In this document: positions 1 to 25,798 of the stretch, in pieces
Position numbering within the stretch: the stretch's first letter is position 1
Layout: each line of letters starts with the position of its first letter
Source: a virus
Length of the DNA stretch: 64,000 nucleotides
Virus record (IMG/VR): IMGVR_UViG_3300042890_001842
Span: 1-64,000 of that record
Direction: 5' to 3' (one strand)
The notes under the pieces: generated by a model
What the model was told of the DNA's origin: nothing
Databases searched by the model: none
What the model saw: only the letters and a program-made list of their open reading frames with translations
Program-made: the position numbers and the translations under genes

Positions 1-81
1 TCAACGATTAACCTATCAATGCCAACAGGCAAAATGTACACAAAAGTAATTGACCGCATGGGAAAGGTAACAATTAAATGA
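1..81 (+). CDS. C-terminal end of a gene that begins outside the window
   Basis: An open frame runs from base 1 to a TGA at 79-81 and gives 26 residues ending GKVTIK. Its stop overlaps the start of the next gene in an ATGA arrangement, typical of translationally coupled phage genes. Too little is present to suggest a function. Confidence 0.6.
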   Translation, partial: STINLSMPTGKMYTKVIDRMGKVTIK

Positions 82-269
82 TGACACGAAAAGACTATGT
101 AGCAACCGCAGAAATTCTAAAGTATGCTAGCGATAAATCGCACCCCGCTTTATTTTCTAAAATCGTAAATGATTTTGCTGAAATGTTTGCGAAAGATAAT
201 CCACGATTTGATGTAACGAGATTTCATGAAGCGAGTGGATACAATGTTCCAAAATTCACTTCGAGATAA
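78..269 (+). CDS. small conserved phage protein, function unknown
   Basis: 63 residues. The start overlaps the upstream stop (ATGA); a second ATG follows at 81. The protein is helical and polar, with the phrase KDNPRFDVTRF near residues 40-50, which resembles a small protein of many actinobacteriophages (N-terminal tyrosine/alanine-rich helix, then NP-F-RF). No catalytic motif is visible. It is co-transcribed with the partial upstream gene. Confidence 0.7.
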   Translation: MMTRKDYVATAEILKYASDKSHPALFSKIVNDFAEMFAKDNPRFDVTRFHEASGYNVPKFTSR

Positions 270-381
270 AGTAAAGCGAATTCAGGAGTTGCGGAGATCA
301 AATGCCGCAACCCCTGTACGCAATAAGAAAAAATATTCAAGAAAAACAAAACATAAGCGGCGTGTCGATTTGACAGATTGA
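244..381 (+). CDS. small very basic protein, unknown
   Basis: 45 residues starting MFQNSLRDK, overlapping the 3' end of the previous gene by 26 bp in another frame. About one third of residues are Lys or Arg, concentrated in the C-terminal half (KKKYSRKTKHKRR), so nucleic-acid binding is plausible. A weak purine-rich stretch precedes the ATG. It could be a fortuitous frame, but its position and composition fit phage small basic genes. Confidence 0.45.
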   Translation: MFQNSLRDKVKRIQELRRSNAATPVRNKKKYSRKTKHKRRVDLTD

Positions 382-484
382 TCAGCTGCCCGCAATAGTG
401 TGGGGGCATAGAGGCTTTTAAGTCAAGCACCAAAACTCCCTGAAAATTGTGAGGTTTATCACAAAATAAATCTGCGACACGCCG
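358..484. repeat. GC-rich 10-bp inverted repeat flanking a leader region
   Basis: CGGCGTGTCG at 358-367 and its exact reverse complement CGACACGCCG at 475-484 enclose 107 bp. The enclosed segment also contains a smaller TGCCC/GGGCA hairpin and the palindrome at 448-463. In such AT-rich DNA a perfect GC-rich pair is unlikely by chance. It could form a long-range RNA stem at the end of the upstream transcript. Confidence 0.45.
448..463. promoter_or_regulatory. CRP/GlxR-type palindrome (site 1)
   Basis: TGTGA-GGTTTA-TCACA, a perfect match to the CRP-family consensus. Its centre lies about 73.5 bp upstream of the expected transcription start of the promoter at 501-522. Confidence 0.6.
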
Positions 485-500
485 AAGGTGAATTAGTAAA

Positions 501-522
501 TGTCAGTAGGCCATGCTAAAAT
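501..522 (+). promoter_or_regulatory. early promoter P1 (TGTCAG-N10-TAAAAT)
   Basis: TGTCAG at 501-506, 10-bp spacer ending ATGC, then TAAAAT at 517-522. TG one base before the -10 makes it an extended -10. No -35 hexamer is present at 17 bp. The leader CCAACAACGAAAGG leads to ATG 552. Confidence 0.7.
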
Positions 523-551
523 ACTCTTATTCCAACAACGAAAGGTATCAA

Positions 552-755
552 ATGAAAATCGAACACAACCTAAAGTTTGTAACAGAGTTTGCAGACAATC
601 ACCCAGTAACAGCACAAATGCTAAACATGCCTGAACCTATGCGTGTATTGCTATTAGAGTCAATGCTAAAAGAATTACTTGCACCACGCTTGCAACCTCT
701 ATTAGATGAAATCAATGCAGGTGGGTCATACGCAATTCTAAAGGTGGCTGAATAA
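552..755 (+). CDS. small acidic/helical phage protein, unknown
   Basis: 67 residues beginning MKIEHNLKF. This ATG was chosen over an in-frame ATG at 513 because 513 lies inside the promoter spacer and -10, and because CGAAAGG sits 6-7 bases before 552. The protein is predicted helical, with a hydrophobic middle (MRVLLLESMLKELL). The stop overlaps the next start (TAATG). Function not recognised. Confidence 0.75.
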   Translation: MKIEHNLKFVTEFADNHPVTAQMLNMPEPMRVLLLESMLKELLAPRLQPLLDEINAGGSYAILKVAE

Positions 756-1030
756 TGGGATACACAACAGCATTAGCACTTGCAGATGACCTATCATTAG
801 AGGCAGGGTTAGCCTATCACTTACAGGCTAATCATTACCCACCCGTTCCCGTTGCTATGGTGCAACCTTGCATAGATGCTATTGATGCATACTATGATGA
901 GGACTATGGTCGTGAAGTATCTTTACCTGAAGGTATCTCATGGCGTGGGCAGGTAACTGCACCAGCACATGCAATAATTGATGCACACCACTTAGATGCT
1001 TGGCTAGTAAGCGAGGACTACGATGAGTAA
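755..1030 (+). CDS. small phage protein, unknown
   Basis: 91 residues, coupled to the previous gene by a TAATG overlap. Acidic, with an N-terminal alanine/leucine-rich helix and a central DAIDAYYDEDYG segment. No recognised domain. Second gene of the P1 operon (552-1163). Confidence 0.75.
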   Translation: MGYTTALALADDLSLEAGLAYHLQANHYPPVPVAMVQPCIDAIDAYYDEDYGREVSLPEGISWRGQVTAPAHAIIDAHHLDAWLVSEDYDE

Positions 1031-1163
1031 TCTTTATTCTATCTTATCTACTTGGTATCCTGAAGGAGACTTCAACGAAGCTGAATTGTGGGATGCTATC
1101 GCTGAAAACGAAGGCGTTGATGTAAATGAGATCATGGATGGCGATCTAACAGACTACCTGTGA
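1023..1163 (+). CDS. small acidic phage protein, unknown
   Basis: 46 residues (MSNLYSILSTWYPEGDF...), overlapping the preceding gene by 8 bp. Strongly acidic, with tryptophans at 11 and about 24. The stop TGA falls inside the palindrome at 1159-1174, so the operator of the next promoter overlaps the end of this gene. Confidence 0.7.
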   Translation: MSNLYSILSTWYPEGDFNEAELWDAIAENEGVDVNEIMDGDLTDYL

Positions 1164-1174
1164 TGTATCTCACA
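1159..1174. promoter_or_regulatory. CRP/GlxR-type palindrome (site 2)
   Basis: TGTGA-TGTATC-TCACA, a perfect palindrome. Its centre is about -64.5 relative to the expected start of promoter P2. It overlaps the stop codon of the upstream gene. Confidence 0.6.
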
Positions 1175-1180
1175 CGACAC

Positions 1181-1200
1181 TCCCCTCAGAAATGAGGGGA
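1181..1200 (+). terminator. hairpin with GAAA tetraloop directly before promoter P2
   Basis: TCCCCTCA-GAAA-TGAGGGGA: an 8-bp perfect stem with a GNRA-type loop. It is followed not by a T-tract but, two bases later, by the TGTCAG box of P2. It may end or protect the upstream mRNA; intrinsic termination would be weak. Confidence 0.55.
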
Positions 1201-1202
1201 AA

Positions 1203-1224
1203 TGTCAGTGGGCTATTGTATAAT
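1203..1224 (+). promoter_or_regulatory. early promoter P2 (TGTCAG-N10-TATAAT)
   Basis: TGTCAG 1203-1208 and a consensus TATAAT 1219-1224 separated by exactly 10 bp. CA-rich leader and CGAAAGGAAA ribosome site before ATG 1255. Confidence 0.75.
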
Positions 1225-1254
1225 ACTACCAACAACAAAACGAAAGGAAACAAA

Positions 1255-1404
1255 ATGACAACACTAGAAATCGGACAGACATACACCACTTCAACAAGCG
1301 GTGTAACAGGAACAATCGTGGCGGTAGATAATCACCCAAGCGGTGTAAATCGTGTCTTGCTTGATGTCAATGGCAAAGAGCGTTGGACAAGCGTTCCAAA
1401 CTAA
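1255..1404 (+). CDS. small beta-rich phage protein, unknown
   Basis: 49 residues starting MTTLEIGQTY. The start was set at 1255 because CGAAAGGAAA lies just upstream, whereas the longer in-frame opening at 1192 runs through the promoter. The sequence looks like a small all-beta fold (TSGVTGTIVAVDNH...RVLLDVNGKERW), perhaps SH3-like. Function not recognised. Confidence 0.75.
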   Translation: MTTLEIGQTYTTSTSGVTGTIVAVDNHPSGVNRVLLDVNGKERWTSVPN

Positions 1405-1421
1405 TTCCTGATAAGGAAAAG

Positions 1422-1448
1422 TCCTGAGCATGACTACTAAAACTGCTC
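1422..1448 (+). repeat. conserved hairpin motif CCTGAGCA..AAAACTGCTC, copy 1
   Basis: GAGCA and TGCTC arms separated by a 13-base A-rich loop. The same pattern recurs at 3493-3517 and on the - strand at 27081-27104. It lies just after the stop of the 1255-1404 gene, before promoter P3. Confidence 0.5.
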
Positions 1449-1454
1449 ACAATT

Positions 1455-1476
1455 TGTCAGACCCCTATGCTATACT
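1455..1476 (+). promoter_or_regulatory. early promoter P3 (TGTCAG-N10-TATACT)
   Basis: TGTCAG 1455-1460, spacer ending ATGC, TATACT 1471-1476 (extended -10). No CRP-type palindrome is found at the usual distances. The leader is a fourfold ACCA repeat followed by CGAAAGAGGAAA. Confidence 0.75.
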
Positions 1477-1511
1477 AACCAACCAACCAACCAAACGAAA
1501 GAGGAAAATAA

Positions 1512-1937
1512 ATGGCTAGAAACGGAAAATCTATTAGCGTGAAAATCGCTACACCAAAGGTAATCAAGGCACTAGAAACACGCCTTGCTGAATTAGAAAA
1601 GAACTACGCTACACAGGGCGAGAACGAAGCAAAGTATCAGAAAGCCCGTGATAAGTGGCAAAAAGAAATTGGCAAGTGGGCTATGTCTAACTTCTCAAAG
1701 GCTGAGAACCTTCGTACAAACTATCGTAATTGGAACAAAACTCTCAATGTAGATTTTGACCTTACAGTAAATGAGAGCGACTTCCCTAAAGAACCTGAAA
1801 AGGATTTTGAGACAATTCACCAGCACACATACAATGAGCAGAAAGAGGAAATCACGAACGCAATTCGTATCCTCAAGATGACAGATGAGGAAACAGTAAA
1901 TACCTCAACCTATAACGCTATTGCTCGTTATCTGTAA
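1512..1937 (+). CDS. coiled-coil phage protein, unknown
   Basis: 141 residues, sole gene of the P3 transcript. GAAAGAGGAAA precedes the ATG. The first 25 residues are basic; residues about 18-70 are charged and helical with heptad-like spacing (LETRLAELEKNY...KARDKWQKEIGKW), followed by an acidic region. No enzyme motif. High codon quality and a strong ribosome site suggest abundant expression. Confidence 0.8.
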   Translation: MARNGKSISVKIATPKVIKALETRLAELEKNYATQGENEAKYQKARDKWQKEIGKWAMSNFSKAENLRTNYRNWNKTLNVDFDLTVNESDFPKEPEKDFETIHQHTYNEQKEEITNAIRILKMTDEETVNTSTYNAIARYL

Positions 1938-1947
1938 ATAAATAGTG

Positions 1948-1984
1948 GGAGGGCTAGACACACTCTAGCCCTCCATGCTATAAT
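1948..1984 (+). promoter_or_regulatory. 11-bp hairpin abutting an extended -10 promoter
   Basis: GGAGGGCTAGA (1948-1958) pairs perfectly with TCTAGCCCTCC (1964-1974) around a CACAC loop. Four bases later ATGC-TATAAT gives an extended -10 at 1979-1984. The position where TGTCAG would sit is occupied by the stem, so this promoter lacks that box. The leader ACTAACAAAGGAACAAA leads to ATG 2012. Confidence 0.6.
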
Positions 1985-2011
1985 TCGTATCCCTACTAAC
2001 AAAGGAACAAA

Positions 2012-2269
2012 ATGAAAAATCGTTATCGTATCGAAATCTATGATGATGTAAAAGCAAATGATTTGACTATTTATTCTGAGTCAAATGTAGATAAAGAATA
2101 CTTAACTGAAATGGTATTCTCTAACTTAAGACAATTCTCTGGAAACATTCGTGCATACGTATATGACAATGTAAAGAAAAAGAAAACCACTGCACTGATT
2201 CTACCAATGGAATTGTTAGCTAAATATAGAAATTACAAACTTACTTCTGATGAAATACTAATGAATTAA
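2012..2269 (+). CDS. small phage protein, unknown
   Basis: 85 residues. AAAGGAACAAA precedes the ATG. A predicted alternating beta-alpha-beta pattern (RYRIEIYDDV ... YLTEMVFSNL ... NIRAYVYDNV) resembles small ferredoxin-like folds. Monocistronic, with a strong terminator directly downstream. Confidence 0.75.
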   Translation: MKNRYRIEIYDDVKANDLTIYSESNVDKEYLTEMVFSNLRQFSGNIRAYVYDNVKKKKTTALILPMELLAKYRNYKLTSDEILMN

Positions 2270-2275
2270 TAATTA

Positions 2276-2310
2276 TGAGGCGGGATCCGTGCCCGCCTCA
2301 TATTATTTTG
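2276..2310 (+). terminator. intrinsic terminator
   Basis: TGAGGCGGG (2276-2284) pairs perfectly with CCCGCCTCA (2292-2300) around a 7-base loop and is followed by TATTATTTT. It closes the 2012-2269 transcript. Confidence 0.75.
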
Positions 2311-2328
2311 GCCCGCAAAGGTAAGGGG

Positions 2329-2358
2329 TTATCCACAGCTTTAAGAGAGTTATCCACA
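2329..2358 (+). promoter_or_regulatory. two perfect DnaA boxes, 21 bp apart
   Basis: TTATCCACA at 2329-2337 and at 2350-2358, same orientation, start-to-start 21 bp (two helical turns). They lie between a terminator and the CRP-type palindrome of promoter P4, so host DnaA could bind here to regulate P4 or start replication. Confidence 0.55.
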
Positions 2359-2370
2359 ATCCCCGAAATT

Positions 2371-2386
2371 TGTGAGATTGATCACA
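2371..2386. promoter_or_regulatory. CRP/GlxR-type palindrome (site 3)
   Basis: TGTGA-GATTGA-TCACA, perfect, centred about -74.5 from the expected start of promoter P4. Confidence 0.6.
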
Positions 2387-2424
2387 CGAGACAATTCGGA
2401 CAAATGACTAACAAGACTAGTAAA

Positions 2425-2446
2425 TGTCAGTCCCCTATGTTATACT
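2425..2446 (+). promoter_or_regulatory. early promoter P4 (TGTCAG-N10-TATACT)
   Basis: TGTCAG 2425-2430, spacer ending ATGT, TATACT 2441-2446 (extended -10). Leader CCAACAACCAATCGAAAGGAAA before ATG 2479, in two blocks of CA-rich sequence and ribosome site. Confidence 0.75.
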
Positions 2447-2478
2447 CAATCCAACAACCAATCGAAAGGAAATAAATT

Positions 2479-3483
2479 ATGGCTCACAATCTAGAAGTCG
2501 AAAACGGCGAAGTTGCTTTTGCGCTACGTGGAAAACCAGCATGGCACAATTTAGCAAATCGCATCTTTACACAAGATGAAGAAGTAACTACACAAACAAT
2601 GCTTGAAGAGGCAAAGTTAGCAAATTGGAATGTTCGTCTATCTCCAATCGCTGAGCACATTCCAGAATCATGGAATGATGTTTCTACTGCATCTCTTGTA
2701 TTGCGTGACAATCCATTCAATGGCGGAACTGATGTTCTTGCAACTGTTGGAAAGCGTTATAAGCCTGTGCAGAATGAAGAATTGTTTGCATTCGCTGATG
2801 CAATTCATGATGCAAACGCTGACTGTCGCTGGGAATCTGCTGGTTCTCTAAAGCAGGGCAAAGTTGTATTTGGTACTGTTGATATTCCTCGCACAATGGT
2901 GCTTGACCCTAGCGGTGCTAATGATGAAACTAAGTTGTATCTAATTGTTTGGACATCTCATGACGGGTCTGTTGCTGTTCAGGCTGCTGTTACTCCTGTT
3001 CGTGTTGTATGCCAAAACACTTTGAATCTTGCAATGCGTAATGCAAAGCAATCTTTCAAGATTCGCCACACGCAATCTGTTGAAGGTCGCATTCAAGTTG
3101 CTCGTGAGACTCTTGGTCTTGCTCTTGGATACTTTGATGAATTTGAGAAGGAAGCGCAAGCACTCTACACTCAATCAATTACTGATTCAGAATTCTCAAA
3201 GTTGATTCAAACAATCTACCCAAAGCCTGAGAAGGATTCAAAGGGTGCTTTGAAGAAGTGGGAAAACAAAGTCGTTTTGCTTGATGACCTTTACCACAAT
3301 TCACCAACGAATGCTAATATCAAGGGAACAAAGTGGGGCGCATTCAACGCTCTAACTGAACGCCTAGATTATTATCGTTCAGGACGTGGCAATTCTGAAT
3401 CACTCATGGCTGGTGCATCAGGATTTGACCCTGTTCTAACTGCTGAGAAAAACAAAATCAAGAAATTGGTTTCTGCTTTCTAA
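2479..3483 (+). CDS. DUF932 / phage-plasmid-like protein
   Basis: 334 residues, close to the usual length of the DUF932 family (phage/plasmid-like proteins of TIGR03299 type). Recognisable family features are the opening HNLEVENGEVAFALRGKPAWH, then GKRYKPVQNEELFAFAD near residues 90-107 and VVCQNTLNLAM near 180. The biochemical role is unknown; the family is found in phages and conjugative plasmids. Driven by P4, with CGAAAGGAAATAAATT upstream, and probably strongly expressed. It is the largest gene of the + strand block. Confidence 0.88.
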   Translation: MAHNLEVENGEVAFALRGKPAWHNLANRIFTQDEEVTTQTMLEEAKLANWNVRLSPIAEHIPESWNDVSTASLVLRDNPFNGGTDVLATVGKRYKPVQNEELFAFADAIHDANADCRWESAGSLKQGKVVFGTVDIPRTMVLDPSGANDETKLYLIVWTSHDGSVAVQAAVTPVRVVCQNTLNLAMRNAKQSFKIRHTQSVEGRIQVARETLGLALGYFDEFEKEAQALYTQSITDSEFSKLIQTIYPKPEKDSKGALKKWENKVVLLDDLYHNSPTNANIKGTKWGAFNALTERLDYYRSGRGNSESLMAGASGFDPVLTAEKNKIKKLVSAF

Positions 3484-3492
3484 ATAAAAAAA

Positions 3493-3517
3493 TCCTGAGC
3501 ATGATTTAAAACTGCTC
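3493..3517 (+). repeat. conserved hairpin motif CCTGAGCA..AAAACTGCTC, copy 2
   Basis: GAGCA/TGCTC stem with an 11-base loop TGATTTAAAAC, just after the DUF932 stop and five bases before tRNA-Asp. It may act in RNA processing or 3'-end protection; no T-tract follows. Confidence 0.5.
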
Positions 3518-3521
3518 TCTT

Positions 3522-3595
3522 GGTTCCATAGATTAATTGGTTAGATCGCCACCCTGTCACGGTGGAGGCTACGGGTTCAAGTCCCGTTGGAATCG
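3522..3595 (+). tRNA. tRNA-Asp (anticodon GTC)
   Basis: A 74-base cloverleaf. The acceptor GGTTCCA pairs with TGGAATC, with one G-T. The D arm is GATT/GATC, the anticodon stem CCACC/GGTGG carries loop CTGTCAC, and the T arm ACGGG/CCCGT carries TTCAAGT. The 3' CCA is not encoded. It lies between the DUF932 gene and a tiny Lys-rich frame, probably processed from the P4 transcript. Confidence 0.93.
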
Positions 3596-5737: not shown

Positions 5738-6478
5738 ATGCCGAACTGGGTATATAATGGTTTGACTATCGAAGGCAAGCCTGAATCTGTAAAATCTCTT
5801 ATGGAGCAAATGAATAAGCCATTTGTTAAATTGCATGATACTTGGAATTCAACAACTCATCAAATGGAAGTAAAGCAAACTACTTATCCTAATCCTGTAT
5901 TTGCTTTTCATAATATCTATAATCATTTAGATGCTGGTATTACTGATGAGGAATACTTAAAACAACCTGACCATTCCCTCCCACTTGCAGAGGCTATGAA
6001 ATTTCAGGGCAACCATTGGTATGACTTCAATGTCCGTGAATGGGGCACAAAATGGGATGTTGGTGTTCATTCAGATGATAAGTATCCTGATACTACTGTA
6101 GAGGATGCTGTTAATGGTGAGAATCATGTAGTCCATTATAATTTTAATACCGCTTGGTCTCGTCCTATGCCAGCCTTAATTAAACTATCATCTCAATACC
6201 CTGACCTTCTATTTACTTTATCATATGAGGAAGAGACAGGCTGGGGCGGAGAGTTAGAAATTCTTCGTGGCGTAGTTATCTCAGAATCAGAATATGACAA
6301 TATGTGTCGTGACTGTGATGCAACTGACCAAATGGAATACTGCGAGAACGAATGCGGTGAAATCTGTGGCAACTGTAATTGGCTAGGAGAGGCTGACCTA
6401 GAGGCTGTCAAAGAATGTCAGACCCATAGTATATACTTAGAAACCAAAGTACCTGAATATAGAAAGGCGGAAGCATGA
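5738..6478 (+). CDS. DUF1281 / Api92-like ferredoxin-fold protein with Cys-rich tail
   Basis: 246 residues. MPNWVYNGLTIEG and the later WGTKWDV..., WSRPMPALIKLSSQYPDL and ETGWGGE segments match the DUF1281/YubB (Api92-like) family of phage and plasmid proteins. Residues about 190-215 add a cysteine cluster (C-x2-C...C-x3-C...C-x2-C) likely to bind zinc. Function unknown. Driven by P7 and coupled by ATGA to the next gene; promoter P9 lies inside its 3' end. Confidence 0.85.
   Translation: MPNWVYNGLTIEGKPESVKSLMEQMNKPFVKLHDTWNSTTHQMEVKQTTYPNPVFAFHNIYNHLDAGITDEEYLKQPDHSLPLAEAMKFQGNHWYDFNVREWGTKWDVGVHSDDKYPDTTVEDAVNGENHVVHYNFNTAWSRPMPALIKLSSQYPDLLFTLSYEEETGWGGELEILRGVVISESEYDNMCRDCDATDQMEYCENECGEICGNCNWLGEADLEAVKECQTHSIYLETKVPEYRKAEA
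6416..6437 (+). promoter_or_regulatory. early promoter P9 (TGTCAG-N10-TATACT), internal
   Basis: TGTCAG 6416-6421 and TATACT 6432-6437 inside the DUF1281 gene. The sequence TGTCAGACCC is shared with P3. It would boost the genes from 6475 on. Confidence 0.6.
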
Positions 6479-14430: not shown

Positions 14431-14570
14431 TACTTTGCGTTATTAGCCTTTACACGGCTATAGCCAGTCTTCTTTTTATTCATAGATCCTGGTGCCTTCC
14501 CCGCTGGATTTTTCCAATTGCTTCTACGGATTTCTAAAGACTTAGCAATCTTGTCATGATGCTTTGCCAT
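14430..14570 (-). CDS. small basic protein
   Basis: 46 residues (MAKHHDKIAKSLEIRRSNWKN...), rich in Lys/Arg/Asn. TAATG-coupled to the histone-H1-tail-like gene upstream. Likely nucleic-acid binding by composition only. Confidence 0.62.
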   Translation of the reverse strand: MAKHHDKIAKSLEIRRSNWKNPAGKAPGSMNKKKTGYSRVKANNAK

Positions 14571-14809
14571 TACTTCTTCTTTGTCACTGTCTTCTTTGCT
14601 GGGGCCTTCTTAGCCGTCTTCTTTACTGGAGCCTTCTTTGCTGTCTTCTTAACTGTAGATTTCTTAACTGGCTTCTTCTTAGCAGCAAGATTTTCTTCTG
14701 CTTCTAGTTCTTCAAGCTTCTGATTAATAATCTGCTCAACTACTTTTTGATTTTCCAACAGGCTTGAAGGTTTGAAAAAATTTTTAATGTTATCAATAAT
14801 GTTAGGCAT
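14570..14809 (-). CDS. protein with histone H1-like Lys/Ala/Pro tail
   Basis: 79 residues. Residues 1-45 are a short helical, acidic region; residues about 44-79 are KKPVKKS..KKTAKKAPVKKTAKKAPAKK-type repeats, like the C-terminal tails of histone H1 and actinobacterial HupB. Such tails bind DNA non-specifically and compact it. It could coat phage DNA or act on the host nucleoid; it might instead be a head protein. Confidence 0.7.
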   Translation of the reverse strand: MPNIIDNIKNFFKPSSLLENQKVVEQIINQKLEELEAEENLAAKKKPVKKSTVKKTAKKAPVKKTAKKAPAKKTVTKKK

Positions 14810-16227: not shown

Positions 16228-16416
16228 CTATTGTACTATATTTAATTTAACTTGGAAAGAGCATGGATCTCCACCCTCATCCCATTCTTTGGCCTCTTCA
16301 TCTGTAAGAGGTGGTCCATCGTGTGTATTACAAAATACATCAGAAACCCATCCTCTTTCATAGCCGTTCTTAATCCATATTTCAAACTCTAAAAAATCTG
16401 AGTCGTCTAGATCCAT
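16228..16416 (-). CDS. small conserved phage protein
   Basis: 62 residues: GWVSDVFCNTHDGPPLTDEEAKEWDEGGDPC. This C-x-x-H-D-G-x-P ... E-W-E/D-E-G-G-D-P-C pattern recurs in actinobacteriophages; probably metal-binding. The start overlaps the thioredoxin stop. Confidence 0.75.
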   Translation of the reverse strand: MDLDDSDFLEFEIWIKNGYERGWVSDVFCNTHDGPPLTDEEAKEWDEGGDPCSFQVKLNIVQ

Positions 16417-16709
16417 TCCTGAATCTCCTTGATCATCACGTGTTTAGGCTTTGCTCCAATAACTCTTTTTACTGGTTCACCATTTTTAAATAAAATAGTG
16501 GTAGGTAAGCTTGTTACTTCATACTGCAAAGTCTTTTTTGGATTTTCATCCACATTTATCTTACCAAGCCAAACACCAGTTTCAACAGAAACTTCTTCTA
16601 TAACTGGGCTAAACATTTTGCATGGCCTGCACCATTCAGCCCAAAAGTCTATCATAATAATCTTATGACTTGATATTACTTCTGAGAAGTTTTCGTCTGT
16701 TACTATCAC
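16407..16709 (-). CDS. thioredoxin
   Basis: 100 residues. GTG 16709 was chosen as start: it overlaps the upstream stop (GTGA) and follows GGAGGCATT; a longer frame to 16733 would begin inside the upstream gene. FWAEWCRPC (22-30) is the redox site, with Arg in place of the usual Gly, and SLPTT supplies the cis-proline. It would act as a cytoplasmic disulfide reductase, for example for ribonucleotide reductase, or as a polymerase factor as in T7. Confidence 0.9.
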   Translation of the reverse strand: MIVTDENFSEVISSHKIIMIDFWAEWCRPCKMFSPVIEEVSVETGVWLGKINVDENPKKTLQYEVTSLPTTILFKNGEPVKRVIGAKPKHVMIKEIQEWI

Positions 16710-17176
16710 AATGCCTCCACATGAGTTGGCCAATAGTAGTTACACTGCTCACAGCATGTATAACCAATCTCTTTATAATCTGCAAAATCACTATAAAACC
16801 AATAGTGATCAGGATCCTTTTCAAACAATCTACCCTTGTGAGTATAATGAACCTGCTCTTCTCCAAGCCACCACGGTTTATTTGACTCAAGTCCTAGGAA
16901 GTTTTCTTTATATATCTCATCAAATTGGATGTGCGTGGTATTCTTATATCCACGTAGAACTATATCCCTTATGATGGATTCATTGTACAGGAACAACCAA
17001 TCTTCATGTCCCCGCCACATTTTAACTGCTGGATGATTCTTCCATGCACCTGTTTCGTACATGCCAGCCAATGATTTTAGAATTTGTAGGTTCTCAACGC
17101 TCTGCTTAATCAAACGCTTTCGGTCAAGATTTTTAGCTGTAATATTAAAGTCTGCTTCTGGTAGAAATGTTTGCAT
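16706..17176 (-). CDS. pyrimidine-dimer DNA glycosylase-like protein
   Basis: 156 residues from a leaderless ATG at 17176. MQTFLPEADF...LDRKRLIKQSVENLQIL...WKNHPAVKMWRGHEDWL resembles the phage 'pyrimidine dimer DNA glycosylase' group (Pyr_excise family). Those enzymes excise UV dimers; direct catalytic proof is not visible. The C-terminus adds a CCEQC cluster near 144. Useful for a phage in sunlit water, which is inference. Confidence 0.68.
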   Translation of the reverse strand: MQTFLPEADFNITAKNLDRKRLIKQSVENLQILKSLAGMYETGAWKNHPAVKMWRGHEDWLFLYNESIIRDIVLRGYKNTTHIQFDEIYKENFLGLESNKPWWLGEEQVHYTHKGRLFEKDPDHYWFYSDFADYKEIGYTCCEQCNYYWPTHVEAL

Positions 17177-17182
17177 TGTCAT

Positions 17183-17601: not shown

Positions 17602-17949
17602 TTAGTATTCGCCCTTCGTATCAATAGGAGTTGGGGCAGTGGCTAAACTTCCACAACTTGAGCATTCCATATCAAGAAAATATGTTGCTATTTCAAAATT
17701 ATCAAAAATAACTTTTACATTAAAAATATTACATCCACATGGACATATGTGCGTTGGTGTTCCACGAAGATCCATTGACTTGTCATAGTTTTTTGGTTTA
17801 AGGTCAACTATGTTTTTTGAGCCCTCTTCTTCATCATCTTCATATTCATCATTGATAACAAGGATTCTATTTCTTTCAAGTAGATCTTTGGCTACTCCTA
17901 AAGTAAGTAATCCAAACATGAGAGCAGAAAGACGTGAAAACCATTTCAT
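17602..17949 (-). CDS. membrane-anchored zinc-ribbon protein
   Basis: 115 residues. A short N-terminal hydrophobic helix (LSALMFGLLTLGVA) is followed by an acidic linker and a zinc ribbon, CPCGC (~69) ... CSSCG (~96) with LATAPTPID after it. The ribbon portion is one I recognise from many actinobacteriophages; the membrane segment may be a variant feature. Confidence 0.75.
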   Translation of the reverse strand: MKWFSRLSALMFGLLTLGVAKDLLERNRILVINDEYEDDEEEGSKNIVDLKPKNYDKSMDLRGTPTHICPCGCNIFNVKVIFDNFEIATYFLDMECSSCGSLATAPTPIDTKGEY

Positions 17950-17963
17950 AAACTTATTATACT

Positions 17964-18530
17964 CTACACTTCTATTATTGTAAAGGGGCCTCTTACGCTC
18001 ATTATGAACTTGGCCGAAGCTTCTAGGGCTGTTTTAACACGAGTTCTTGGTGTCTTTATATTCTTTGTTGAAAAAAGTGATCCAAGTGCTACTTGCTGTC
18101 CGCTTCCTTCTGCAAGATAATCGACATCAGCCTCTGCAATATGAAAGTCGTAGTCCATTGTAAATATTCTACCAGTTCCAGCAACTGCTATTAAGAATAC
18201 TCCGCCTTCATCACCCTCATCTGTTGCTGTGCCAAATTTTCCGTAACCGTTTTCTTGAAATGTTTGCTTAATTGATTCTACAAACTTTGTACGCATAAAC
18301 TTATCTAAGTTTTTAAAACCAGCAGTTGGTTTGTATACTGGTGGTACCCATATGTACTGCAAGATCTGACCCATTCTAAATGAGTCAGTAAATCCTATTC
18401 CGTATTGACCAACCTTAAATACTTTTGGTGCAGTTATTTGTAATATGAGTCCGCTTTTTTCATCTGATGCTGCAGAGTCTCCACCAAGAAAGACTTTGTT
18501 TCCAGCAGATAAAGCAACTATACATGTCAT
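17964..18530 (-). CDS. Ntn-hydrolase of proteasome beta / HslV type
   Basis: 188 residues. After Met removal Thr1 (TCIVAL) would be the nucleophile. Asp17 (GGDSAAS) matches proteasome Asp17 exactly, Lys35 (APKVFKV) fits the Lys33 position, and GSGQQVALGSL (~139) matches the GSG-x-x-A-x-G loop. Length is near HslV (about 175) and shorter than actinobacterial PrcB. No partner ATPase gene is in the window. It might degrade host proteins, replace PrcB in the host proteasome, or mature a virion protein. Its mRNA appears leaderless. Confidence 0.82.
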   Translation of the reverse strand: MTCIVALSAGNKVFLGGDSAASDEKSGLILQITAPKVFKVGQYGIGFTDSFRMGQILQYIWVPPVYKPTAGFKNLDKFMRTKFVESIKQTFQENGYGKFGTATDEGDEGGVFLIAVAGTGRIFTMDYDFHIAEADVDYLAEGSGQQVALGSLFSTKNIKTPRTRVKTALEASAKFIMSVRGPFTIIEV

Positions 18531-18537
18531 ATAGTCT

Positions 18538-18566
18538 ATTGTACTATTTTTAATATTCTGTGTCTA
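18538..18566 (-). promoter_or_regulatory. leaderless promoter of the Ntn-hydrolase gene
   Basis: On the - strand: TAGACA (18566-18561), 17 bp, TACAAT (18543-18538), seven bases, ATG 18530. It lies inside the 3' end of the upstream gene. Confidence 0.6.
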
Positions 18567-18858
18567 TTTCGCTTAATTCAACCATATTTAGCTGGACTAG
18601 GGCATTTTCCAGCTCAGACTTAATTTCAATTAGTTCTTGTATAGCATTATAGTACTTGTCTTTCCACTCAGTAAGCTCTTTTTCTAATCTATATAAATCT
18701 AATTTAAGATCTTTAATTTCTAACTTAAGGTGGTCCTGCTCTCTTTCAGACTGTCTTACCTTTTCTTTCTTACTGTCGTTAATTCCAGAAATTATTGCTG
18801 TTCCCATGCCGCTCAAAATAGCTGCTGCGATTGCCAAAATTACTGCGGTATAATCCAT
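18550..18858 (-). CDS. membrane-anchored coiled-coil protein
   Basis: 102 residues: one N-terminal membrane helix (AVILAIAAAILSGMGTAIISG) and a long charged coiled coil (40-95). The layout recalls spanin or Rz-like proteins, but it is far from the lysis cassette, so the role is open. A TATAAT lies nine bases before the ATG on the - strand. Confidence 0.7.
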   Translation of the reverse strand: MDYTAVILAIAAAILSGMGTAIISGINDSKKEKVRQSEREQDHLKLEIKDLKLDLYRLEKELTEWKDKYYNAIQELIEIKSELENALVQLNMVELSEIDTEY

Positions 18859-19321: not shown

Positions 19322-19622
19322 TAGGCTTTCCCTCCAGTTCGCATCTTACTCCGTAGGACTCAATAATCTTCTTTACCATTTCGACATACTCTATAACCTT
19401 CATTTTTGCTGTTCCGTCGTATTGTCTAAAATTATCTTCATACAGTCTAATTGCTATAAATTCTGGATACTGAACAATATTCATCTTGAAATCGTTTACT
19501 GGCTTCTTAAGCTCTCTAATCTTGTTAGCCATCTCTTTATTATAAAATACTGGCTTGTTGGGTTCACCAGTCCATTGATTTATTCCATACTTAAAATGGT
19601 CTTTGTTTTTATCAATAAACAC
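19305..19622 (-). CDS. conserved phage protein, unknown
   Basis: 105 residues; residues about 48-98 (YPEFIAIRLYEDNFRQYDGTAKM...EYVEMVKKIIESYGVRCELEG) look like an alpha-beta domain. Overlaps the WhiB gene by 11 bp, so the two are probably co-regulated. Confidence 0.7.
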   Translation of the reverse strand: MFIDKNKDHFKYGINQWTGEPNKPVFYNKEMANKIRELKKPVNDFKMNIVQYPEFIAIRLYEDNFRQYDGTAKMKVIEYVEMVKKIIESYGVRCELEGKPSDRIS

Positions 19623-19923
19623 CTTTACCCCTTAATCTTTTCCAAACTTCCGTCTCTTTATGTAAATTCTTTGTCTTGTCTATGGAACCAGAAGTTAGAT
19701 AAACTCCACCCCAAACACCATATTCAGAATTATTTACACCAGACTCATAACATATTTTAATGACTGGGCAAGATAGACATGCCTCGTCAATGCTTTTTGA
19801 TATAGTTGAATCTGTTTCATATTTATCATAAAATAAATTAGTATTCATTCCACGACATACGGCCAGATTAAACCAATCAAAATCATCTTTATCTATACCA
19901 AGATCATTTAAAATATTTGACAT
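19612..19923 (-). CDS. WhiB-family Fe-S regulator
   Basis: 103 residues from ATG 19923 (ATG 19950 is possible). C23, C49-x2-C52-x5-C58 are the four 4Fe-4S ligands, followed by the diagnostic GVWGG turn and a basic tail (KRLRGKG) for DNA contact. WhiB proteins bind sigma-A region 4 and redirect transcription; phage WhiBs are known from mycobacteriophages (TM4 WhiB represses host whiB2 and blocks superinfection). Restricted to Actinobacteria and their phages, it is the best host marker here. Confidence 0.9.
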   Translation of the reverse strand: MSNILNDLGIDKDDFDWFNLAVCRGMNTNLFYDKYETDSTISKSIDEACLSCPVIKICYESGVNNSEYGVWGGVYLTSGSIDKTKNLHKETEVWKRLRGKGVY

Positions 19924-20164
19924 ATTTTTTAGGAAGCTCCCATACTCCAATACTGTTTACAGATATTTTTTCTGACATTCCCCAAGAATTGTTTTTAAAT
20001 AAACCTTTAATGCTTGTGTATCCTGATGGATCTTTTTTCCATATAATTAGATCATAGTTCTCCCAGTACGGAGATATGTCTTTTGCTCTCTTGATAAAGA
20101 GATTTACACCTAATTCGTTAAGCTTTAGCATGCCATCCTTAATGACTAAACCGCAGCATCCCAC
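19904..20164 (-). CDS. small phage protein, unknown
   Basis: 86 residues from a GTG start eight bases after a TATAAT box, so probably leaderless. CC near the N-terminus and an aromatic middle (PYWENYDLIIWKKDPSG). Overlaps the WhiB start. Confidence 0.65.
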   Translation of the reverse strand: MGCCGLVIKDGMLKLNELGVNLFIKRAKDISPYWENYDLIIWKKDPSGYTSIKGLFKNNSWGMSEKISVNSIGVWELPKKYVKYFK

Positions 20165-21220: not shown

Positions 21221-21820
21221 CTATTTACCGCAGGTTGGGCAAACACCATTAGATGCTACTATTGGCTTAGCTGCTCCTCCAGATTTAAACTTAGGGCGAC
21301 CAAATCCTACAATAGAAACCATTACTCCCGCTTTGTTTTTCTTATAAGCACGTAATTGTTTGCATGTTTCTCCGCCATTTCTTTGGCTTCCCTTTTTATT
21401 TGAAGATGTATTTCCTTCGATACACCAAACTGTTCCATCTTCGTTGTCCTCAATAACAATTCCTACATGAGAAACTCTATCGACGCCATCTGAAGGGAAA
21501 TCAAAATAGGCGATATCTCCTGGCTCTGGATCTGCAATGTCTCCATCGATCCATGCATTAGCTTTTTTAAATGCCGTTACTCCTGCTGGAGTGTAAACTG
21601 TATTTGGAATCTTTACGCCACTTTCGTTCCCAACCCAATTAACGAAACTTCCGCACCATGGTTGGAAGTTAGCTTTTGTATAAGCACCGTACTTTGTTTC
21701 GTTATCTTTAGGACCTTCAATGTATCCTACTTGAGACTTGGCAACTTGAATTAATCTAGCAGCTGTTCCTTTTGGAGCTTTTGCAGATTCTGCTGGAACT
21801 GGAAAGTTATCTGTTGTCAT
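21221..21820 (-). CDS. CHAP-domain endolysin
   Basis: 199 residues. Cys56 in QPWCGSFVNWV and His118 in RVSHVGIV are the CHAP catalytic pair, with PGDIAYFDF between. The C-terminal 20 residues include CPTCGK, perhaps a small zinc knuckle for wall binding. It should cleave peptidoglycan at lysis. Adjacent genes encode holin-like membrane proteins. No signal peptide, so export needs a holin. Confidence 0.9.
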   Translation of the reverse strand: MTTDNFPVPAESAKAPKGTAARLIQVAKSQVGYIEGPKDNETKYGAYTKANFQPWCGSFVNWVGNESGVKIPNTVYTPAGVTAFKKANAWIDGDIADPEPGDIAYFDFPSDGVDRVSHVGIVIEDNEDGTVWCIEGNTSSNKKGSQRNGGETCKQLRAYKKNKAGVMVSIVGFGRPKFKSGGAAKPIVASNGVCPTCGK

Positions 21821-24751: not shown

Positions 24752-25798
24752 CTATTTAGAACCTATTTCGCTAATCTTAGCTTTAGAAAACTTAAGCATT
24801 TTTGCACCTAGCGGAGAGTATCCTAAGTCTGCTGCTTTTTTGCCACAAGTATTTGCCATATAATCAAAAAACTTTTTTACAGATTCGTTATGTAAAGATT
24901 TTTCTTTGGACGCTATGCCATATGTAAATGTAGATATGGGATAAGCAAGCTTGTTAACAGTCTTATAGTTTACTTTAACTATACCCTTTTCGTCCATTGA
25001 AAAATCGCTTAAGAATACTGATGCTGCAGAAACTGTAGGCTGCATGTACCTTCCAGATTCATTTTGTATTGATGCCATTTTAAGGCCTCTTGCATATGAT
25101 ATTTCGTTATATCCAATAGAACCATTTGTTTGCGTCAAAACCATAGCCACTCCGTAGGATCCAGAAGCACTCATCATAAATGGATTACTACTTATTGATC
25201 CAGGAAATGATGAAGAGAAGTTTTTGTTGCCAGCCTTTGCCCATATACTTGGGGCAACGACATTTAAATAAGATGTAAATACTTCTGATGTTCCAGATCC
25301 ATCTACCCTGTAAGCAACTCTTATTGGGGTAGAAGGTATTTTAGGTTCTTTACCACCAATTAAATTTTCTTTTAAAATTTGAGGGTCATTCCATTTTGTT
25401 ATTTTTCCAGAAAATATTTTGGCCAATGTATCTGTACTCATCTTTATAGTTACTTTATATCCGTCTAGTCTATAAATTATTCCTATTGGACCAGCAACCA
25501 AAGGAACGTAAACAAATTCTTTTGTTGGTCTAACTTCTGATCCAGAGTACGGGACATCTGACATTGCAAAATTTGCTATACCATTTGAAAACATATTTTT
25601 TCCAGCTCCAGAACCATTTGGAGAATATGTTACAGAATCTCCACCAGACTTTACAAACTCAACTCTACATCTATCTATAAAGTTGGCAGCAAAAGTAGAT
25701 CCAGATCCAGTAATAGGTTCTGCGTTTGATGTGTTAATTAAAAAAACATTAGACAATAAGACTAATGTTGCTGTGACTACAATCAGTTTTAGTTTCAT
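24752..25798 (-). CDS. pstS: PstS-type phosphate-binding protein
   Basis: 348 residues: signal peptide to about 26, then GSGSTFAANFIDRC (phosphate-loop start), YSPNGSGAGKNMF, FAMSDVPYSG, VAGPIGIIYRLDG, IFSGKITKWNDP, RVDGSGTSEVFTSYL and ASGSYGVAMVL, all classical PstS landmarks. It captures phosphate outside the membrane for the host PstABC transporter. PstS is a known auxiliary gene of cyanophages; in an actinobacterial phage it suggests phosphate-poor water. No ribosome site; a TATTAT lies six bases before the ATG, so possibly leaderless. Confidence 0.88.
   Translation of the reverse strand: MKLKLIVVTATLVLLSNVFLINTSNAEPITGSGSTFAANFIDRCRVEFVKSGGDSVTYSPNGSGAGKNMFSNGIANFAMSDVPYSGSEVRPTKEFVYVPLVAGPIGIIYRLDGYKVTIKMSTDTLAKIFSGKITKWNDPQILKENLIGGKEPKIPSTPIRVAYRVDGSGTSEVFTSYLNVVAPSIWAKAGNKNFSSSFPGSISSNPFMMSASGSYGVAMVLTQTNGSIGYNEISYARGLKMASIQNESGRYMQPTVSAASVFLSDFSMDEKGIVKVNYKTVNKLAYPISTFTYGIASKEKSLHNESVKKFFDYMANTCGKKAADLGYSPLGAKMLKFSKAKISEIGSK

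Follow-up and report, generated by a model that had tools for sequence, protein, structure and literature searches.

A 64,000-nucleotide stretch of viral DNA (positions 1 to 64,000 of the IMG/VR virus record IMGVR_UViG_3300042890_001842; hereafter the window) carries a real and intact gene of an already known family, which codes for a proteasome-like Ntn hydrolase most likely belonging to the AAH group. As the family is known from other phages and from bacteria, the enzyme does not represent a new kind. We consider it probable that the protein is expressed from a leaderless transcript and acts during infection as a Thr1-active, homo-oligomeric protease that resembles BPH and is independent of an ATPase. 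For most proteasome-like proteins beyond 20S, HslV, Anbu, BPH, and connectase, we know of no function. Those borne by phages are convenient to study, since the gene can be removed from the phage and the effect on infection read, and the identity of the substrate would provide the first role of an AAH protein and reveal whether proteasome-like machines are used by phages in the absence of unfoldases. New here is the presence of an AAH-type gene in phages of Actinobacteria, the host group in which a survey of 2021 found none, and the fact that freshwater actinophages keep this gene under strong purifying selection and with a conserved private promoter.

The gene and the phage that carries it

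The gene occupies positions 17964-18530 of the window on the minus strand, starts with an ATG at 18530 and encodes a protein of 188 amino acids (MTCIVALSAGNKVFLGGDSAASD...PKVFKVGQYGIGFTDSFRMGQ...); the plus strand across the same interval contains many stop codons. The protein begins with Met-Thr and a propeptide is absent, the predicted mature N-terminus being Thr1-Cys-Ile-Val. Within the freshwater phage clade, the gene is under purifying selection, with a median pairwise dN/dS of 0.09. In HMM searches, the protein matched PHROG 1040, named 'peptidase HslV family' (E 2.9e-14), and the Pfam family Proteasome (PF00227) with an E value of 0.0022, which lies below the curated cut-off, and an archaeal proteasome-beta model of NCBIfam gave a marginal match far below the cut-off. 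A phmmer search of PDB sequences returned nothing relevant, and the protein matched no defence system in PADLOC. When the phage record was searched with the protein's own sequence, this gene was the single proteasome-like one, and an alpha partner was thus not found. Matches to AAA (PF00004) or AAA_2 (PF07724) were likewise absent from the whole record of 112,011 bp, in agreement with the original prediction, which had described the enzyme as lacking a partner ATPase.

The two ends of this record (1-3269 and 108743-112011; the former corresponding to window 1-3269) are identical over 3,269 bp, so that the genome is probably complete and comprises about 108.7 kb of unique sequence. Its major capsid protein shares 59-62% identity with those of Streptomyces phages of the Stanwilliamsviridae, and a gene for a WhiB-like regulator (19612-19950, minus strand), which is present in 72 of 75 related loci, is located 1.1 kb upstream of the Ntn-hydrolase gene. 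WhiB has been used as a marker of actinophages (PMC6802176; PMC10202952), and the two features together place the phage clade in Actinobacteria, which supports the host assumed originally. Judged by its sequence, the virus is a dsDNA tailed phage of freshwater Actinobacteria that is capsid-related to the Stanwilliamsviridae. The AAH gene is absent from the two Stanwilliamsviridae reference phages that were searched whole, and no Streptomyces phage is present among the tblastn matches listed for the Ntn hydrolase. Among longer IMG/VR contigs that share this capsid, 4 of 14 carry the gene, including all three above 90 kb; the remaining ones may be fragments and carry no information on this point.

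The genome also bears on the idea that the enzyme processes a phage protein, which in its most obvious form would make it a virion or capsid-maturation protease. Some bacterial copies of the gene do lie near prophage terminase or prohead-protease genes, but in the phage studied here a separate S78 prohead protease is encoded next to the major capsid gene (record 75680-76999), at a distance of roughly 57 kb from the Ntn-hydrolase gene, and the related Streptomyces phages build the same type of capsid without an AAH gene. A role in capsid maturation was rejected because of this separate protease, and we regard it as highly improbable.

Active site and predicted fold

The residue following the initiator codon (ATG, GTG, or TTG) is threonine in 250 of 251 relatives and serine in the remaining one, and both Asp17 and Lys35, the equivalent of Lys33, are invariant in the two alignments (77/77 and 31/31 rows). 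The claim that Thr1, Asp17, and a lysine near positions 33-35 are in place is therefore borne out; it had been staked in advance on the conservation of Thr1 in homologues, and on this count it survives. The 'GSG loop' that had been listed with these residues is present in this phage's protein as Gly-Ser-Gly at positions 141-143 (Thr1 numbering), but its serine is not conserved across the family, in which Ser, Cys, or Ala occupies that position. In a relative from a Moorella phage, the deposited start (6043) omits a TTG-Thr start at 6001 and thereby loses Thr1; the annotated start is probably wrong.

Beyond the core triad, which is intact, the family does not keep the accessory residues of the proteasome. 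The set Ser129, Asp166, and Ser169 of 20S beta subunits was not recovered in the family, in a region where the proteasome numbering is approximate; with the same approximation, the Ser129 position is occupied by Ser, Cys, or Ala, an aspartate at the Asp166 position is absent from the alignments and position 177 is either serine or glycine. Because the Ser129 and Asp166 positions are not kept, efficient proteolysis cannot be assumed, and from sequence an altered or restricted chemistry appears possible. A further family feature is the motif SFRMGQ at the start of helix 1, which is invariant in the 77-row alignment.

AlphaFold2, supplied with the 77-row alignment, confidently predicted an alpha-beta-beta-alpha Ntn fold (pLDDT 89.7, pTM 0.86), as expected for a proteasome-like Ntn hydrolase, with four flanking helices (residues 51-59, 75-93, 145-154, and 161-175). 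The original claim would also have failed had such a fold not been predicted, and it thus passes this second check as well. In a Foldseek comparison with the PDB, the best match was BPH (5ovs, TM 0.75), followed by HslV (TMq 0.57-0.68); 20S subunits were also matched, among them the proteasome subunits of Mycobacterium tuberculosis (TMq 0.64-0.66). Phage relatives in BFVD reached TM values of up to 0.89. BPH is thus the closest solved structure (5ovs, 5ovt, 5ovu; PMC5777263), and the two proteins have in common the lack of a propeptide and of a known unfoldase as well as an acidic pore loop, the region taken as such in the phage protein (residues 95-110) being net negative in 72 of 77 sequences. 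They differ in that their identity is only 15-20%, that BPH is encoded by a chromosomal gene of beta-proteobacteria, and that BPH retains all active-site residues.

The main rival to a BPH-like ring is an active Thr1 Ntn enzyme that works as a monomer or small assembly and, in the manner of connectase, acts on a single phage or host protein by cutting or ligating it. Connectase, a relative that functions as a ligase, shows that the fold is capable of such chemistry (Fuchs et al. 2021; PMC8665760), the equivalents of Ser129 and Asp166 are not conserved, and the invariant, family-specific SFRMGQ motif, at a place that in the proteasome holds residues close to the active site, would be in keeping with one particular substrate. 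On the other hand, all four ring-contact helices are predicted, whereas connectase lacks H1 and H2, the connectase-type insertion is absent, and the nearest fold is that of the ring-forming BPH. We therefore take this explanation seriously but regard it as fairly unlikely.

The pore-loop region is also relevant for a second alternative, according to which the protein would be HslV-like and driven by a host ATPase such as ClpX, ClpC, Mpa/ARC, or another one. HslV (ClpQ) has the Ntn fold and the N-terminal threonine in common with the phage protein, the PHROG name points in this direction, and the phage has no AAA or AAA_2 protein of its own. Yet neither a match to the HslV model of NCBIfam nor an HslU partner was found for the phage, and the pore-loop region is acidic here and in BPH and basic in HslV (PMC5777263). 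Moreover, Fuchs et al. (2021; PMC8665760) found no AAA+ partner co-occurring with these homologues, and in their Table 1 the HslV entry for Actinobacteria is empty, which makes HslU unlikely in the host. An enzyme of the HslV type thus seems improbable.

Relatives and probable assignment to the AAH group

By tblastn, 199 phage records with relatives were retrieved (best identity 40%), which include phages of Vibrio, Aeromonas, Salmonella, and Escherichia, and a scan of IMG/VR yielded 80 close loci with 71-100% identity. Bacterial relatives (36-45% identity) are found mainly in alpha-proteobacteria and Actinobacteria, but also in Firmicutes and Myxococcota, with Frankia, Dactylosporangium, Actinoplanes, Rhizobium, and Azospirillum as examples. 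In a phylogenetic tree, the sequences of the freshwater phages group together in a single clade (SH-aLRT 100) that is distinct from the bacterial AAH proteins, and this speaks against recent transfer from the bacteria that were sampled.

This distribution weighs on the proposal that the phage protein joins or poisons the PrcAB proteasome of the host. The actinobacterial host and the resemblance of the fold to the M. tuberculosis subunits are in its favour, but the fold is closer to that of BPH, none of the bacterial proteasome-beta models of NCBIfam was matched, and the proposal would not explain the occurrence of the family in phages of Vibrio, Aeromonas, Salmonella, and Escherichia, hosts in which we know of no PrcAB. 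The spread of the family over phages and bacteria of several phyla and the BPH-like fold indicate that the protein has not been adapted specifically to the proteasome of Actinobacteria; the proposal found no support, and we consider it very unlikely.

In a survey of proteasome-like proteins, Fuchs et al. (2021; PMC8665760) described 22 new groups, two of which are prominent in phages: PPH, proteins of about 140 residues without H2, and AAH (group I), which occurs in alpha-proteobacteria, Actinobacteria, and phages. The protein described here most likely belongs to AAH, an assignment based on comparing the distribution of its relatives, the four predicted flanking helices, and the absent propeptide with the published description of AAH proteins (e.g. 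WP_035979212). Its relatives are mainly from alpha-proteobacteria and Actinobacteria plus phages, H1-H4 are predicted, and neither a propeptide nor a large insertion is present. PPH proteins are likewise phage-borne and proteasome-like, but with 188 residues and four helices the present protein does not fit their description, and a 146-residue 'proteasome subunit beta' of a Caulobacter phage was matched by Foldseek only at a TMq of 0.56. With AAH it has in common the distribution, the occurrence in phages, the compact four-helix architecture, the Met-Thr start, the triad of the T1/D17/K33 type, and the lack of an AAA+ partner. The present clade differs by its occurrence in phages of Actinobacteria, its own branch in the tree, and its identity of only 36-45% to bacterial members.

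Fuchs et al. (2021; PMC8665760) could find no Actinobacteria-specific phage with an AAH protein, and this gap is filled by the present clade and, more remotely, by the Actinomycetia phage DSL-LC01 (OQ999401). The latter is also a lake actinophage, and its related protein (WJZ48484, E 2e-14) is encoded next to a WhiB gene, but it is only 26-30% identical, has a lysine-rich C-terminal tail, and forms a very long branch. The other members of PHROG 1040, from T5-like Demerecviridae, 121Q-like jumbo phages, and phages of Vibrio, Aeromonas, Geobacillus, and Moorella, belong to the same HMM family and have the same triad at 26-41% identity; some of these phage proteins carry C-terminal extensions of 100-200 residues after the Ntn domain, which are missing from the present protein. 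In Aeromonas phage 2L372X, the gene at 3001-3552 and the following one are both annotated as 'peptidase HslV family', which suggests a two-subunit pair of the proteasome type in some phages. In several gammaproteobacterial phages, PhoH-like genes lie at distances of up to about 3 kb from the AAH-like gene, possibly reflecting a functional link or a shared gene module.

Among bacteria, nodulating rhizobia and Paraburkholderia carry AAH-like genes on large plasmids, Frankia has them as well, and on a plasmid of Sinorhizobium terangae the gene is located between those for NifQ and an Fe-S assembly protein. A link to nitrogen fixation was rejected, because this nif neighbourhood was present nowhere else among the 84 loci examined. 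No gene is conserved beside the bacterial AAH-like copies across actinobacterial families. In eight proteobacterial or firmicute loci, a phage terminase is encoded near the AAH-like gene, which identifies these loci as prophages.

Expression, proposed function and gene neighbourhood

The original prediction also assigned to the gene a leaderless promoter of its own, and this is well supported by comparison of upstream sequences. The putative sigma70-type promoter (18531-18566, minus strand) consists of a TACAAT, which ends 7 nt ahead of the ATG, and a TAGACA 17 nt upstream of this hexamer. Each of the 67 distinct upstream regions contains a TANNNT hexamer whose end lies 7-8 nt ahead of the ATG (TATACT in 40, TACAAT in 21), the best TTGACA-like hexamer is found at a spacing of 17 nt in 64 of the 67, and a Shine-Dalgarno-like motif was found in none of 66. 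As the -35 box extends into the 3' end of the upstream gene, this overlap may contribute to how well the box is conserved. Throughout the phage, a TANNNT at this distance of 7-8 nt precedes 21 of the 116 genes of at least 80 codons, compared to a background of about 0.028 per position, and leaderless starts thus look like one of the normal modes of this phage.

We infer activity, oligomeric state, and substrate of the BPH-like protease favoured here as follows. From its conserved promoter, the gene would yield a leaderless mRNA whose 5' end lies at the AUG or directly beside it, and the start methionine would be removed by the methionine aminopeptidase of the host, baring Thr1 with no propeptide to be cut; for BPH, removal of the methionine was seen by mass spectrometry (PMC5777263). 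Within the triad Thr1-Asp17-Lys35, the threonine would act as N-terminal nucleophile, and the subunits would self-assemble through H1-H4 into rings, giving a homo-oligomeric, probably double-ring, self-compartmentalising protease. Like BPH, it would not need an AAA+ partner and may act on loosely folded, unfolded, or specific substrates during infection. For BPH itself, the authors raise the possibility that a cofactor was missing or that the model substrates were unsuitable (PMC5777263). A further proposal, which is speculative and in our view rather doubtful, is that the AAH ring or enzyme serves a widespread clade of freshwater actinophages as a device dedicated to ATP-independent proteolysis (or protein ligation) and aimed at one particular target of the host or the phage, its chemistry being altered from that of the proteasome (no Ser129/Asp166). 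If true, a function would for the first time be assigned to the AAH family.

The genes surrounding the Ntn-hydrolase gene are also located on the minus strand. The upstream neighbour (18550-18858; 102 residues, PHROG 10127, present in 72 of 75 related loci) has a hydrophobic N-terminus and a coiled coil and gave a weak match to Rz-like spanins (E 0.0048). The downstream neighbour (17602-17949; 115 residues, 73 of 75 loci) has a hydrophobic N-terminus and paired cysteines resembling a zinc ribbon, and a TATAAT ends 7 nt before its own ATG. Farther downstream are genes for a pyrimidine-dimer DNA glycosylase (Pyr_excise, 16706-17182) and a thioredoxin (16407-16733). WhiB and thioredoxin are thus indeed encoded nearby, but to call this a host-takeover neighbourhood, as had been done, is an over-reading: the region also encodes a CHAP-domain endolysin-like protein (21221-21820) and the small membrane and coiled-coil proteins, and a common gene order was seen only within one phage clade. 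Elsewhere in the window, a small protein encoded at 14570-14809 has a lysine/alanine/proline-rich tail resembling histone H1, and similar tails are found at the ends of two phage AAH-like relatives. A PstS-like phosphate-binding protein (PBP_like_2, E 1.5e-41) is encoded at 24752-25798 and likely represents an auxiliary metabolic gene.
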